NCBI RefSeq assembly: GCF_002356555.2
Contig: NZ_AP017372.2
Coordinates: forward strand, 1,240,001 to 1,304,000
Length of the DNA stretch: 64,000 bases
Reading direction: 5' to 3'
DNA from: Halorhodospira halochloris
Lineage (GTDB): Bacteria > Pseudomonadota > Gammaproteobacteria > Nitrococcales > Halorhodospiraceae
The number at the start of each line of letters is the position of its first letter. Positions within the stretch are counted from its first letter, which is position 1. A program made the position numbers and the translations under genes. This document shows positions 7,058-63,420 of this stretch, in pieces. The notes beneath the pieces are model-generated. The model saw nothing but the letters and a program-made list of their open reading frames with translations, made no database searches and was not told the DNA's origin.

Positions 7058-7207
7058 GGTGCTTCTAAAAACTTTCCCGGTGCCACCATCCGCCCCGGTG
7101 TGGAGGGCGCCGTGAACCCATCCCTGGAGGCTTCATGGCACCATCCTTGGCGCCATGACCTCCCCACCGGGACGGGTGGTGGCGCCGGGGAGGTTTTTAT
7201 CAGTACC
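7058..7207 (+). repeat. Palindromic mobile element, copy 1
   Basis: A diverged complete copy. The core reads GGCGCCGTGAACCCATCCCT, then GGAGGCTTCATGGCACC; plus orientation is defined here by GCCGTGAATCCATCCCTGGA. The arms (gtgccaccatccgccccgg and its partner) pair with several mismatches and no flanking duplication is evident, so this copy looks old. It lies between the acyl-CoA synthetase gene and the BASS gene, both on the minus strand. Confidence 0.85.
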
Positions 7208-10296: not shown

Positions 10297-10389
10297 GTAG
10301 GGTAGGTAGGGGGGGCTCGGCAGCTGCTGTTTAGAGCTGCCGAGGCTCCCGGTAGGCCTGCGCGTTGTTTGTAAAAGGCTAGGCAAAAG

Positions 10390-10537
10390 GGAACCTCTAA
10401 AACTTCGCCGGCGCCACCATCCGCCCCGGTGTGGAGGACGCCGTGAATCCATCCCTGGAGGCTTCATGGCGCCATCCCTGGCGCCAAGACCTCCACACCG
10501 GGGCGGATGGTGGCGCCAGCGAAGTTTTAGAGGTTCC
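10390..10537 (+). repeat. Palindromic mobile element, copy 2, with CAAAAG target duplication
   Basis: A 148-bp near-perfect palindrome bounded by GGAACCTCTAAAAC and GTTTTAGAGGTTCC. The flanks are exact 6-bp direct repeats, CAAAAG at 10384-10389 and 10538-10543. Arms CCACCATCCGCCCCGGTGTG and CACACCGGGGCGGATGGTGG pair completely. The core holds two hairpins whose loops both read CCATCCCTGG. It sits between convergent genes and is one of the youngest-looking copies. Confidence 0.95.
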
Positions 10538-10557
10538 CAAAAGGCTAGGCCGCTGGT

Positions 10558-13696: not shown

Positions 13697-13782
13697 GCCG
13701 GGGTGGCGGAACTGGTAGACGCGCTCGACTCAAAATCGAGTGGGCTTCGCCCATGTGGGTTCGAGTCCCACCCCCGGCACCA
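13697..13782 (+). tRNA. tRNA-Leu (anticodon CAA)
   Basis: An 86-base class II tRNA. The acceptor stem GCCGGGG pairs with CCCCGGC and is followed by the discriminator A and an encoded CCA. The anticodon stem CTCGA/TCGAG encloses the loop CTCAAAA with anticodon CAA, reading UUG. The long variable arm TGGGCTTCGCCCA is typical of leucine tRNAs, and the T arm contains GGTTCGAGTCCC. An ATPase gene fragment directly abuts its 3' end. Confidence 0.97.
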
Positions 13783-13783
13783 C

Positions 13784-14345
13784 TTCCTTATTATGGGAGG
13801 TCATCGGCACGCGCAGCTGCCTTTGGCTGGCGACTTCGTGGATCTTCCTGACCAGCGCATCTGCCCGGCTCGGATGCACCCCATTGTCGATCTCTTCTAT
13901 GATCAGCAGCGCTCCCGCCGGCGCGGACAAAAGCGCTGCGCCTACGGCCAGCGCGCGCAGGGTGCCGTCGGATAGCAGCGGGGCATCAACAAAACGCTGC
14001 TGCTCGCCGAAGGTCTCTTCTAGTTTCACCATCACATCCTGACGGGGAGTCTCAATGAACTGGATGTCGGTGATTTCTTGCTCGGGTAAGGAGCGGATGA
14101 TGCTCAGTAGTTCCTGTTTGCCTGCTGGGTCCTGACAGAGCCGATAGAGCACCGCGGAGAGATTACTACCGTCCTCTTTGGGATGCTTGTCGCCAGCATA
14201 CTCGTAGTCACGCATTTGCGCCGGGCGCGGATCAAGAAAAACGATATCGCGTAGCGTCTCACGCAGGGTACGGGTCACCTCGGGGATGAGCTCCTGAGCC
14301 TCGCTGTGAGATTGCTGGAAGCGCCCGGACGTCCTGATTATTCGT
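13784..14345 (-). pseudogene. C-terminal fragment of an AAA-type (AAA_21/OLD-like) ATPase
   Basis: About 185 codons remain. The segment SDGTLRALAVGAALL, a Walker B-like ALLIIEEIDNGVHPSRA and MTSHN match the end of SMC-like AAA_21 ATPases, which often occur in defence systems. The Walker A half is absent: the frame meets a stop just upstream of 14345. At the other end the frame runs into the antisense of tRNA-Leu and stops inside it at 13730, so the natural C-terminus is lost as well. This looks like the debris of an island inserted next to the tRNA gene. Confidence 0.7.
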
Positions 14346-17322: not shown

Positions 17323-17558
17323 GTTGCCACCCTGGGCGTCGATATCGGTCGGGCGAAGAAGAATCCCTGTACGAAGTCGACGTCGGGGTAGAGGGCGGTC
17401 AGTGCCTGATGTTCAGTCTCGACTCCCTCGAGCACCACTAGGCTACCGGCCTCGTGGATCAGGGCAACGAGGTTATTGAGGATTCTCCGCTGTCCCTCGG
17501 CATGCTCCTCGACTGCGCGCTGGATTAGGGAGCGGTCGAGTTTAACCAGATCGGGCGT
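17323..17558 (-). pseudogene. Internally deleted remnant of an EAL-domain gene
   Basis: Bases 17345-17558 match 19012-19225, part of the second EAL remnant, with no length difference and only scattered substitutions. Bases 17323-17343 match 18632-18652 at 19 of 21 positions. This copy therefore lacks the sequence equivalent to 18653-19011, a 359-bp internal deletion, and is cut at both ends. It lies in the 495-bp gap between the HD-GYP gene and pyrF, which holds no intact gene. Confidence 0.85.
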
Positions 17559-17648: not shown

Positions 17649-18449
17649 ATGGTCGAAACAGAGGCTATCGCTAACCGACAATCCTCCAAGCCTATCCCCC
17701 CTGAGGAGAGGCTTATTGTCGCCCTAGATATCCCTAATACCAAGCAGGCCAAAGAGCTGGTGGAGCATCTCGGAGACAGCGTCAGCTTTTATAAGCTCGG
17801 CCTGGAGCTGTTCATGGCCGGGGGCTACTTCGAGCTGGTGGAGTGGCTGCGGGAGAGAGGGAAACGGGTCTTCGTCGATCTGAAGTTCTTCGACGTTCCT
17901 GAGACCGTTGCTTCGGCGGTTCGTCAGCTCCGCCAATATGGAGCAGACTTTGCCACTGTGCATGGCAATGACTCCATGCTGAAAGCGGCCGCAGGGGAAA
18001 AAAACGGAACAAAAATACTAGCGGTAACGGTTCTAACCAGCCTGGATCAGGGGGATATGGAAGATCTGGGGTTCGAGGCGGATATCAACAAGATTGTCCT
18101 GTCTAGGGCCCGGCGGGCCCTGGAGGTGGGTTGCGACGGGGTCATTTCTTCCGGCCTGGAAGCCCAGGATCTTCGCAAGTCCTTGGGTGAGAACTTCTTG
18201 ATCATTACCCCCGGCATCCGACCGGGCAGTAACCAGCGCATCGACGACCAGAAACGCACCGTGGACGTGGAGGATGCCTTCCACAAAGGGGCCGACTACA
18301 TCGTGGTGGGCCGACCCATCCGCGATGCCGATGACCCCAAGGCCGCGGCGGAGGACGTCCAGGCTCGCATTCGGTCCCTGTTTGCCGCTGACGGGGGTTC
18401 AGCCCGGTCCGTTATTACTCCAAGCGCTGTAAATTACAGAGGGGGCTAG
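17649..18449 (+). CDS. pyrF: Orotidine 5'-phosphate decarboxylase
   Basis: A 266-residue enzyme of UMP synthesis that decarboxylates OMP. The start of the TIM barrel (RLIVALDIPN), the catalytic Lys/Asp array VDLKFFDVPETV, the phosphate-binding ITPGIRPG and the final VVGRPIRDADDP are all present. There are 18 extra residues before the barrel and a short tail after it. The gene stands alone between two broken copies of one EAL gene, in the opposite orientation, and its TAG stop overlaps the other gene's stop through the palindrome CTAG. It was probably brought here by rearrangement. Confidence 0.95.
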   Translation: MVETEAIANRQSSKPIPPEERLIVALDIPNTKQAKELVEHLGDSVSFYKLGLELFMAGGYFELVEWLRERGKRVFVDLKFFDVPETVASAVRQLRQYGADFATVHGNDSMLKAAAGEKNGTKILAVTVLTSLDQGDMEDLGFEADINKIVLSRARRALEVGCDGVISSGLEAQDLRKSLGENFLIITPGIRPGSNQRIDDQKRTVDVEDAFHKGADYIVVGRPIRDADDPKAAAEDVQARIRSLFAADGGSARSVITPSAVNYRGG

Positions 18450-19370
18450 CTGTCAGTTGGGCGCCAGAGCAAGTCGCAGCAAAGTACGTAAGGGCTGCTT
18501 TCGGCGGGTGGTGTTTCGGCGATCGACAGCGTGACACAGATGTGGTTGCCGGTGCTGGATCGGTAAGGGCGTGAGACCTTCAGGCGTCGGAGTTCCATGC
18601 AGGCATCCCGGTAATAGTGGCGGCGCAGCCAGTTGCCGCCCTGGGTGTCGATGAGCGGGCGGTAGCGCTGGTCAGGGACTTGAGCAAAGAGTCTATCCCT
18701 GGCGGTGGCGGTCGCCGGATCGGCGGAGTAGCCACACCTTTTGGGCAGCACGTGCTCGTCGACCTGCTCACCGCGACCGTTGAGGACGTAACAGCGCTGA
18801 ACATAAGGCATCTTGAGGAGATCCGCGCAGCTGTCGTGAAGTCCGGTGCCTGCCTCAAGGCGGGCAGCGGCGCGTAAGAATGCCTGGCCGTAAGGGCGCA
18901 GGAAAGAGCGTTCCTGGGTAAGCTCCTCGAGGGCGTGTTCAGTGAACTTTTCTGTGATCTGGCGCAGTGGCTCCAGGCCGAGATCCGGGGGTGACTGCGG
19001 TCCAACTAGGGTCGGTCGGGCGAAGAAGAATCCCTGTACGAAGTCGACGTCGGCGTCGAGGGCGGTCAGCGCCTGATGCTCGGTCTCGACTCCCTCGAGC
19101 ACCACTAGGCTACCGGCCTCATGGATCAGGGCAACGAGGTTGTTGAGGATTCTCCGCTGTCCCTCGGCATGCTCCTCGACGGCGCGCTGGATCAGGGAGC
19201 GGTCGAGTTTAACCAGATCGGGCGTCAGTTCCAGGAGCCGCTCGAAGTTGGAATAGCCTGTACCGAAATCATCCAGAGCCACCAGGCATCCGAACTCCCG
19301 AAACCAGCTGACTGCATCGGCTAGGCGCTGGTTGTCTCCGGGGGTCTCGAGCATCTCAATAGAGATGTTG
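18446..19370 (-). pseudogene. EAL-domain c-di-GMP phosphodiesterase gene, N-terminus lost
   Basis: About 300 residues remain. The reading begins in the middle of the EAL domain (SIEMLETPGDNQRLADAV) and continues with ALDDFGTGYSNFERL, VKLDRSLIQ, LVVLEGVETEHQ and VQGFFFARP, then a C-terminal sensor-like region ending CCDLLWRPTDS. The first third, including the EAL signature and early metal ligands, is absent, and upstream of about 19370 the sequence is unrelated. It should be inactive as a phosphodiesterase. Part of it is repeated at 17323-17558. Its stop shares CTAG with the convergent pyrF stop. Confidence 0.85.
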
Positions 19371-22444: not shown

Positions 22445-22469
22445 AGCTGAATGTTGCGATTCCCCCAGG

Positions 22470-22617
22470 GGAACCTCTAAAACTTCGCCGGCGCCACCAT
22501 CTGCCCCGGTGTGGAGGACGCCGTGAATCCATCCCTGGAGGCTTCATGGCGCCATCCCTGGCGCCAAGACCTCCACACCGGGGCAGATGGTGGCGCCGGC
22601 GAAGTTTTAGAGGCACC
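22470..22617 (+). repeat. Palindromic mobile element, copy 3, with CCCAGG target duplication
   Basis: A 148-bp element from GGAACCTCTAAAAC to GTTTTAGAGGCACC, flanked by exact CCCAGG repeats at 22464-22469 and 22618-22623. Relative to copy 2 the arm has CCATCTGCC and its partner GGCAGATGG, a compensated C-to-T/G-to-A pair. It lies in the divergent gap between phaC and the CheB-CheR fusion gene, so it cannot be a terminator for either. Confidence 0.95.
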
Positions 22618-22677
22618 CCCAGGTAAGTATTGCCAGGCGGGTGAAAACATGTTCTGATTTAGATACAACAATTCAAA

Positions 22678-29569: not shown

Positions 29570-29713
29570 TCCGCCCCTCTAATGCCCTGTTGGGCTTATC
29601 CTCTGTAAGTGTAGTATTGCCAGTTACTTTCTACCAAAACGCGCCGCAGTGCTCCGCCTAAAGCCGCGCAGCGGCTTAGGGGGTGGTGAAGCGGCGCATG
29701 GCGCGCAGCGCCA

Positions 29714-31427: not shown

Positions 31428-31475
31428 GCTTGGCGGGAGTAGTTCATAAATCGCGCCGCAGTGCCGCGCCTATAG

Positions 31476-31624
31476 GTAAACTCTAAAATCTTCGCCGGCG
31501 CCACCATCCGCCCCGGTGTGGGGGTCTTGGCGCCAGGGATGGCGCCATGAAGCCTCCAGGGATGGATTCACGGCGTCCTCAACACCGGGGCGGATGGTGG
31601 CGCCGGAGAAGTTTTAGAGGCACC
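31476..31624 (-). repeat. Palindromic mobile element, copy 4, with CTATAG target duplication, inside the IS right end
   Basis: A 149-bp element from GTAAACTCTAAAAT to TTTTAGAGGCACC, core in minus orientation, flanked by exact CTATAG repeats at 31470-31475 and 31625-31630. Removing the element and one repeat restores GCGCCTATAGCAGCGCAGCG, which aligns with the IS left end. The palindrome therefore arrived after the IS element. Confidence 0.95.
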
Positions 31625-31682
31625 CTATAGCAGCGCAGCGGCTTAGGCGCTGTTTTGGAGGCGACCTGATTGGTGGGAACAG

Positions 31683-37162: not shown

Positions 37163-37314
37163 GGTACCTCTAAAGTCGCCCCGGAGCCGGATGGTCGCCC
37201 TGGTGTGGAGGGCATGGCGCCAGGGATTGCGCCATGAAGCCTCCAGGGATGGATTCACGGCGTTCTGCAAACCAGGGCGACCAACCGGCTCCCAGGGGAA
37301 GCTTTAGAGGTGTC
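37163..37314 (-). repeat. Palindromic mobile element, copy 5
   Basis: A complete, moderately diverged copy with outer ends GGTACCTCTAAAG and CTTTAGAGGTGTC. The arm GGTCGCCCTGG and its partner CCAGGGCGACC differ from copy 2 (CCGCCCCGG and CCGGGGCGG) yet still pair. I see no exact target duplication. It lies in the divergent promoter region between the sprT-like gene and the helicase gene. Confidence 0.88.
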
Positions 37315-50040: not shown

Positions 50041-50200
50041 GGGGGCGCTTGGGCTCATCCCCCCGAGCCACTTGGCTGTCCCGGCGTGGAGGACGCCGTG
50101 AATCCATCCCTGGAGGCTTCATGGCGCCATCCTTGGCGCCAAGACCTCCACGCCGGGACAGAGCCAAGTGGCTCGGGAAGGAGGGGTTCCAGAGGTGCCC
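50041..50200 (+). repeat. Palindromic mobile element, copy 6
   Basis: The core is almost identical to copy 2, but the arms are different: GAGCCACTTGGCTGTCCCGG pairs with CCGGGACAGAGCCAAGTGGC. Relative to copy 2 the inner arm has two compensated changes (GTCCCGGCG and CGCCGGGAC for GCCCCGGTG and CACCGGGGC). The outer ends are diverged. It lies immediately upstream of the rnfA promoter; the 160 bp between it and the parE-type gene holds no gene I can see. Confidence 0.88.
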
Positions 50201-50928: not shown

Positions 50929-51024
50929 TACCTTGCTCCCGACAGGCTATAGCCAAATAGTAATACCCACGTTGGGCCCTGACAAGCGCTTCGAAGAGGC
51001 ATAGACACAACAGAAAATAATATA

Positions 51025-51134
51025 TGAGCCGTTTAGCAGCCCCGGTGTGGAGGTCTTGGCGCCAGGGATGGCGCCATGAAGCCTCCAGGGATGGATTCAC
51101 GGCGTCCTCCACATCGGGGCTGCCAAATGGCTCA
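51025..51134 (-). repeat. Palindromic mobile element, copy 7, short arms
   Basis: A complete core in minus orientation with arms TGAGCCGTTTAGCAGCCCCG and CGGGGCTGCCAAATGGCTCA; the arms pair except for a few bases. The outer CCTCTAAAA-type ends are absent, so this copy is truncated at both sides, perhaps by arm-arm recombination. Confidence 0.85.
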
Positions 51135-51184
51135 GGGGCGAGCCTGTTGCTAAGCGAGGCGCCAAAGGTTACTCGATCGGTTTT

Positions 51185-52741: not shown

Positions 52742-52905
52742 GGGACCTCTAGCAACCTTTAAACCGCCCATTGAGCCTGGCCGCCCCGGTGTGGAGGTCT
52801 TGGCGCCAGGGATGGCGCCATGAAGCCTCCAGGGAAGGATTCACGGCGTCCTCCACACCGGGGCGGCCAGGCTCAATGGGCGGTTTAAAGGTTGCTAGGA
52901 GGCTT
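52742..52905 (-). repeat. Palindromic mobile element, copy 8, longest perfect arms
   Basis: CTAGCAACCTTTAAACCGCC through the arm and core to GGCGGTTTAAAGGTTGCTAG forms a palindrome of about 145 bp whose arms pair without mismatch over roughly 48 bp each. The arm sequence (ACCGCCCATTGAGCCTGG) is unlike other copies although the core is the same. It lies in the divergent gap between the GGDEF gene and nifB, about 110 bp upstream of the nifB promoter. The remaining leader DNA (52906-53124) holds that promoter and no gene. Confidence 0.93.
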
Positions 52906-57128: not shown

Positions 57129-57187
57129 AAGCCATTCGCTCACCGCAAGGGTTCTCTTCTAAGTCGACCCCTAACTCTTCCCTTAAG

Positions 57188-57338
57188 GGGCTCTCTAAAA
57201 CTCCCTCCGGAGCCGCTTAACTACCTCGGTGTGAAGGTCTTGGCGCCAAGGATGGCGCCATGAAGCCTCCGGGGATGGATTCACAGCGTCTTCCACACCG
57301 AGGCAGCTGAGTGACTCCGAAGGAAGTTTTAAAGGTTC
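57188..57338 (-). repeat. Palindromic mobile element, copy 9, directly upstream of the nifH promoter
   Basis: Outer ends GGGCTCTCTAAAAC and GTTTTAAAGGTTC. The flanks are CTTAAG and CTTAAA, a probable target duplication with one change. The arm CTACCTCGGTGTG pairs with CACACCGAGGCAG, a compensated variant of copy 2. The element stops 11 bp before the -24 box of nifH. Confidence 0.92.
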
Positions 57339-57348
57339 CTTAAATATT

Positions 57349-63267: not shown

Positions 63268-63420
63268 GGAAGCTCTGAAACCTTCTCCTGAGCTACTGTG
63301 GCTGCCCCGAAGTGGAGGACGCCGTGAATCCATCCCTGGAGGCTTCATGGCGCCACCCCTGGCGCCAAGACCTCCACTCCGGGGCAGCCACAGTAGCTCT
63401 AGGAAAGGTTACAGAGCTAC
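63268..63420 (+). repeat. Palindromic mobile element, copy 10
   Basis: A complete element with core as in copy 2 and arms GAGCTACTGTGGCTGCCCCG and CGGGGCAGCCACAGTAGCTC, which pair although their sequence differs from other copies. Outer ends GGAAGCTCTGAAACC and GGTTACAGAGCTAC are diverged, and I see no exact target duplication. It ends at the stop codon of nifN. Confidence 0.9.

Follow-up and report, generated by a model that had tools for sequence, protein, structure and literature searches.

REP/BIME palindromes have a RAYT transposase as their partner. They measure 20–40 bp according to PMC3733652, against 150 bp for the repeat element described here. The element also resembles the Yersinia YPAL/RU-2 repeat, which PMC2229807 and PMC2759123 present as an intergenic palindromic repeat that was recently mobile. 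The former gives it a length of ∼168 bp, duplications of 3–26 bp and inverted repeats that are internal. The element here departs from that description, with a length of 150–152 bp, terminal repeats and a duplication of 4 bp, while the twin-hairpin core at its centre, ending TTTACGGCGT, is the same when aligned with the RU-2 core taken from a table of PMC2759123. The consensus of the Rfam family Ysr224 (RF02770) includes this core as well, on the opposite strand, with a best match of 28.7 bits that lies below the gathering score of 70. The Rfam family TwoAYGGAY (RF01731) was absent among 20 Rfam matches up to E 10 at eight loci.

At its ends the element resembles a different class of repeats, MITEs with IS5-family ends (relatives of NCBIfam IS5_4, NF033581). 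Like these it is short, with no room for a transposase gene, and has inverted ends of the form GGGNNCCTC[TG]AAAAAC, a short duplication and a high copy number. It differs from them in that its interior is a conserved hairpin core that occurs elsewhere without such ends, in that no intact partner was found in the genome, and in that related IS copies either lack a duplication or have one of 3, 4 or 5 bp.

The window, a 64,000-nucleotide stretch of Halorhodospira halochloris (NZ_AP017372.2, positions 1,240,001–1,304,000), contains ten copies of the element, and copies 2, 3 and 4 carry an exact, in-register 4-bp repeat (Table 1). We interpret them as MITE copies mobilized in trans by an IS5-family-like transposase, with a 4-bp duplication, each a chimera assembled around an older core, and we put the probability of this reading at about 0.8.

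Table 1. Repeat copies and associated features (positions in the window)
Feature	Position	Strand	Remarks
MITE copy 2, 150 bp	10389..10538	+	GGGAACCTCT...AGAGGTTCCC; near-perfect palindrome
Left target-site duplication of copy 2, 4 bp	10385..10388		AAAA
Right target-site duplication of copy 2, 4 bp	10539..10542		AAAA
Three-way-junction core of copy 2, two ANGGA-loop hairpins	10430..10500	- (ANGGA strand)	position taken from where model R1 matches lie on sister copies, not from a match on copy 2
MITE copy 3, 150 bp	22469..22618	+	CCAG at 22465–22468 and 22619–22622
MITE copy 4, 151 bp	31475..31625	-	TATA at 31471–31474 and 31626–31629
Uninterrupted paralogue of the copy 4 target	29640..29680	+	90% identity over 41 bases, ungapped over the junction
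Older copy (copy 9), 153 bp	57187..57339	-	TTAA at 57183–57186 and 57340–57343; one terminal base missing
Degraded copy 1	7058..7207	+	without clean duplication
Copy with degraded ends	37172..37297	-	without duplication
Core copy, arms divergent	50044..50193	+	
Core copy, arms divergent	51014..51139	-	
Core copy, arms divergent	52758..52883	-	
Core copy, arms divergent	63270..63419	+	

Across the genome (2,834,560 bases in one contig), a 25-base core pattern with up to three mismatches gave 254 matches, and 0 in the control; 40 scored copies, from 347 first-look candidates over the whole genome, were 94–100% identical. For the analysis of the ends we combined the window with 60 stretches of this genome (386,760 bases, 13.6% of it), in which matches to the core pattern with up to five edits defined 102 copies. 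Both ends are present in 75 of these 102, which bears out the earlier claim of constant boundaries; since the stretches were picked around full-length copies and end matches, and the same pattern missed three of the ten window copies, such rates are not genome-wide. Directly outside GGGNNCCTCT...AGAGGNNCCC, an exact 4-bp direct repeat is found in 47 of the 75 two-ended copies, where shuffled flanks give a mean of 1.3, and is missing in the other 28. The element is almost wholly palindromic and spans 150–152 bp in 44 of these 47 copies. It shows features of a MITE, being short, bounded by terminal inverted repeats, present in many copies and flanked by a fixed-length target-site duplication. 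A search of the sampled stretches for coreless elements with these ends gave nine solitary end-like sites and no pair, and neither genome_contigs nor viral_contigs, collections from which this genome itself may be absent, contained an exact match to a 20-mer covering the end and part of the arm.

Many copies in the genome have arms that diverge in sequence and are still paired. Copies such as those at 790187 and 618457 belong to subfamilies whose arms are quite different and yet largely paired, which self-correction of palindromes could explain. Two further features of the window stand apart from the element. A direct repeat of 214 bp, 96% identical, occupies positions 17345–17558 and 19012–19225, the first copy between ORFs and the second overlapping the ORF at 18446–19354. 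At 13697–14278 a tRNA gene is overlapped by an opposite-strand ORF, ATPase-fragment-like by eye, in what is possibly an integration scar; a tRNA is also the only feature that Rfam recognizes in the window at the gathering threshold.

The interior of the element has a distribution of its own. Matches to the element were found in 17 of 58 relatives (18 of 59 with its own genome), none of them to its ends: all lie in the interior, most in the core and the one in G016 in an arm. We aligned the element core with 16 sequences from 15 relatives and with the RU-2 core of PMC2759123, an alignment that leaves out one locus missed by the extraction pattern (L020) and one matching the arm and not the core (L024). 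The core folds on this alignment into an outer stem and two hairpins, with changes on both sides of 19 of the 23 pairs. A covariance model places it in 43 of 232 genomes of the class, or 39 of 187 genera, its own genome included. Among the congeners the model finds five core copies in H. abdelmalekii (G002) and one each in G006 and G007, against the 254 matches obtained here with the pattern. One of the H. abdelmalekii copies, with arms unlike those here, occupies the site orthologous to that of a core copy in this genome. The outer arms with transposon ends have so far been found in this species alone. The core is the older part of the element and is widely shared among Gammaproteobacteria, where it has other arms. 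The preliminary description had set transposition against recombination or a REP-type origin; its case for transposition stands, but the exclusion of a REP-type origin was too simple, as the interior is an old palindromic intergenic core that YPAL/RU-2 and other gammaproteobacteria have in common, and one core copy with other arms occupies an orthologous H. abdelmalekii locus.

What might keep such a core in place is suggested by its loops. A core maintained by selection as a CsrA/RsmA-binding RNA, through its two ANGGA-loop hairpins, would make the MITE its vehicle. Read on one strand, loop 2 is A-N-GGA, with N varying, in 50 of 50 sequences, some of which were themselves the seed of the model that recovered the others. 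On the same strand GGA is present in loop 1 in 49 of the 50 (45 by a pattern that requires GGA, and four of the other five read by eye). The paired changes noted above fit such an RNA, and both this genome and the 12 relatives examined for it have a CsrA gene. In several relatives UACAGGGAUGUA fits the SELEX consensus RUACARGGAUGU, which PMC7652899 gives with its GGA in a six-base loop; the same paper describes CsrA as able to bridge two sites. Against this, the direction of the ANGGA strand is unbiased, with 21 sense and 21 antisense copies in tandem gene pairs by crude gene calls. Counting genes that read toward the element gives 41 sense and 41 antisense, which is no independent evidence because every convergent pair contributes once to either count. 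Ysr224 is modelled on the opposite strand, both strands fold about equally well, and a hairpin acting at the level of DNA would also conserve the loops. No literature joining YPAL with TwoAYGGAY, AYGGAY or CsrA was found among the matches listed. We therefore treat a CsrA-binding role as possible and putative, and selection for it as an unlikely account of why the core is kept.

A second alternative would dispense with recent movement for most copies, taking them as old, vertically inherited intergenic palindromes of the YPAL or REP kind that gene conversion has homogenized. The orthologous H. abdelmalekii copy with its different arms, the presence of the core across the class, the divergent arms that are still paired here and the 28 two-ended copies without an exact duplication could all be read in this way. 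However, gene conversion accounts neither for exact 4-bp duplications at constant boundaries in 47 copies nor for copies inserted into other copies, and the five, one and one core copies found by the model in the congeners contrast with the 254 pattern matches here. Insertion into existing copies emerges from a search for empty sites, in which the flanks of each of the 47 exact copies were joined, minus the element and one duplication, and aligned to the sampled stretches. For eight of the 47 the sampled stretches contain an uninterrupted paralogue to which the joined flanks align with no gap where they meet. In seven of these eight the interrupted target was itself a copy of the repeat, one alignment (1830347) covering just 40 bases, and the eighth is window copy 4, the paralogue of which lies within the window. 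Four of the 12 alignments initially obtained had been dropped, three (316282, 1675851 and 2678000) as self-matches via the end of the element and one (717577) as gapped near the junction. Separately, a 40-bp repeat of palindromic sequence at 29657–29696 and 31624–31663 of the window constitutes the target of copy 4.

Orthologous positions were also compared between species. The aligned parts of the genes flanking copy 1 are separated by ∼98 bases in H. abdelmalekii and by ∼282 here, and no core was found in the orthologous gap; copy 1, the sole copy with an empty orthologous gap, is also one without a clean duplication. With constant ends, exact duplications in 47 of 75 copies and eight interrupted targets that have an uninterrupted paralogue, the repeats have moved by transposition, with defined boundaries, as had been proposed, and inheritance as homogenized palindromes is by comparison quite improbable for most of them.

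The length of the duplication, in contrast, has to be revised. The preliminary description had reported 6-bp repeats, CAAAAG, CCCAGG and CTATAG, around copies 2, 3 and 4, and had deduced a 6-bp staggered cut. These repeats are present as claimed; at copy 2, the CAAAAG at 10384–10389 and 10538–10543 includes, besides the AAAA repeat, a terminal G or C of the element that had been counted as target. For copy 9, described as lying between CTTAAG and CTTAAA, the inner four bases are indeed repeated on both sides, and one terminal base is missing. Among the 47 copies with an exact 4-bp repeat, a 6-bp match is exact in 26 and fails in 21, with the outer bases alone differing. Of the 47, 35 have C as the left outer base and 38 have G as the right one, a preference of the target, which is often C-NNNN-G. 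Another left outer base occurs in 12 exact copies, and all 12 keep the C on the opposite side. The mirror test gave a left G in six, T in two and A in one of the nine copies where the right outer base is not G. These outer-base tests therefore indicate that the terminal G and C are part of the element and that the duplication is 4 bp. The apparent 6-bp match arises because the element ends in G...C and its targets are often C-NNNN-G.

Two individual copies lead to the same length. Copy 1743612 is nested in another copy, and the host sequence is restored unchanged only when 4 bp are removed; at copy 958961 the host base is that of the left flank, so that the right-hand C is not target. The duplication is thus 4 bp. 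A 6-bp duplication around an element of 148–149 bp that lacks the terminal G and C, for which the 26 exact matches, window copies 2, 3 and 4 among them, would speak, is refuted by the 21 copies that match over 4 bp and not over 6, by the constant C in 12 of 12 and by the nested copy and copy 958961, unless all 21 outer mismatches are later mutations, which we consider extremely improbable.

Returning to the reading of these repeats as MITEs, we searched the genome for the transposase. It had been noted that no transposase with matching ends lies in the window, and the genome-wide searches with PF01609 and NF033581 agree, showing no match in the window span. The PF01609 profile has seven matches in the genome. 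L087 (IS1634 by NCBIfam) and L088 and L090 (both IS1380) were set aside, as was L089, which a stop interrupts and which shares 55% identity with L088 over 325 residues; neither a scan for CCTCTAAAA-like ends nor an inverted-repeat search gave a MITE-type end pair around L087–L091. The suggested genome search for a transposase with matching ends did yield an IS5-family relic, which is decayed and has just one such end. This IS5_4-type transposase lies at genome positions 2243645–2244112 (NF033581 match of 1.3e-15). The end GGGAGCCTCTATAAAC comes after it and has TATAG as its flank. The relic is the sole NF033581 match in the genome, and a genome search with its own sequence gave no other match. 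Because a single end is recognizable, the relic's own duplication is unreadable. The searches with PF01609, NF033581 and the relic found no intact transposase of the IS5_4 type in the genome, so the mover is putative. Directly beyond the relic end, a second PF01609 match at 2244149–2244292 (within L092, 2243645–2244292) is part of another transposase gene, as would be expected had the relic inserted there.

The ends of the element are like those of the IS5_4 group. The left end GGGC[AG]CCTC[GT]AAAAACC is present in five of the six plasmid relatives first examined (L106, L107, L109, L110 and L111) and was not recognizable at the sixth, L108. The nine plasmid copies of related IS5 elements, two of which (L110 and L244) share flanks, have duplications of 4 bp, 5 bp and 3 bp in one copy each, 3 bp only with a 2-base slip in one and none in five; L245 and L246 are outside the end analysis. 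Since the duplications of these plasmid relatives vary, we infer the assignment to the IS5 family from the similarity of the ends and from the decayed relic, and an IS5-family-like mover, of which the searches found only a relic, is probable.

The same core is found within a second kind of element in the Halorhodospira sp. MAG CSSed162cmA_122 (G009), which the labels of the search tool assign to another genus of the same family. Here it is central to an element of 140 bp bounded by TACTAACCTTTCGG...CCGAAAGGTTAGTA. TA stands at both borders in eight of the 11 elements with both ends visible, two of which share a flank, possibly as an effect of assembly. Ten of these 11 contain the core, eight as the exact string and two by the model, and one of 144 bp is without it. 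Another TA-bordered element of this MAG, 193 bp long (contig C82:2448–2640, L235), has similar ends and a different interior, in which a model search found no core match. The two elements share the central core, the presence in several copies and the palindromic arms, while the ends and TA borders of the 140-bp element are unlike the IS5-like ends with a 4-bp duplication seen here. TA borders are those of IS630/Tc1-like elements. With the core in both MITEs and coreless members of the TA type, the core is common to two MITEs with unrelated ends, the second of which also occurs without it. We tentatively infer that the core was captured by MITEs.

The mechanism that we propose would have an IS5-family-like DDE transposase act in trans on the GGGNNCCTCTAAAA(A)C ends and make staggered cuts four bases apart in the target, which is often C^NNNN^G, leaving a 4-bp duplication on either side of the insertion. 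The MITE is a chimera in which outer arms with transposon ends enclose the older, conserved twin-hairpin core, and the core would have been amplified in this species after it gained such ends. More tentatively, and in our judgement probably going too far, the ANGGA core might be a modular passenger, the heart of YPAL as well, that was independently packed into MITEs with unrelated ends and may persist through the binding of CsrA/RsmA to its RNA.

For this species, the footprint of the element is corrected and the kind of transposase to seek is indicated. One core unites the Halorhodospira repeats with Yersinia YPAL/RU-2, Rfam Ysr224 and other gammaproteobacterial intergenic hairpins, which were previously described apart, the outer transposon ends varying by lineage, and the origin and persistence of such palindromic repeats become testable. 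If the more tentative reading is true, the elements would be mobile CsrA-binding sites or sponges.
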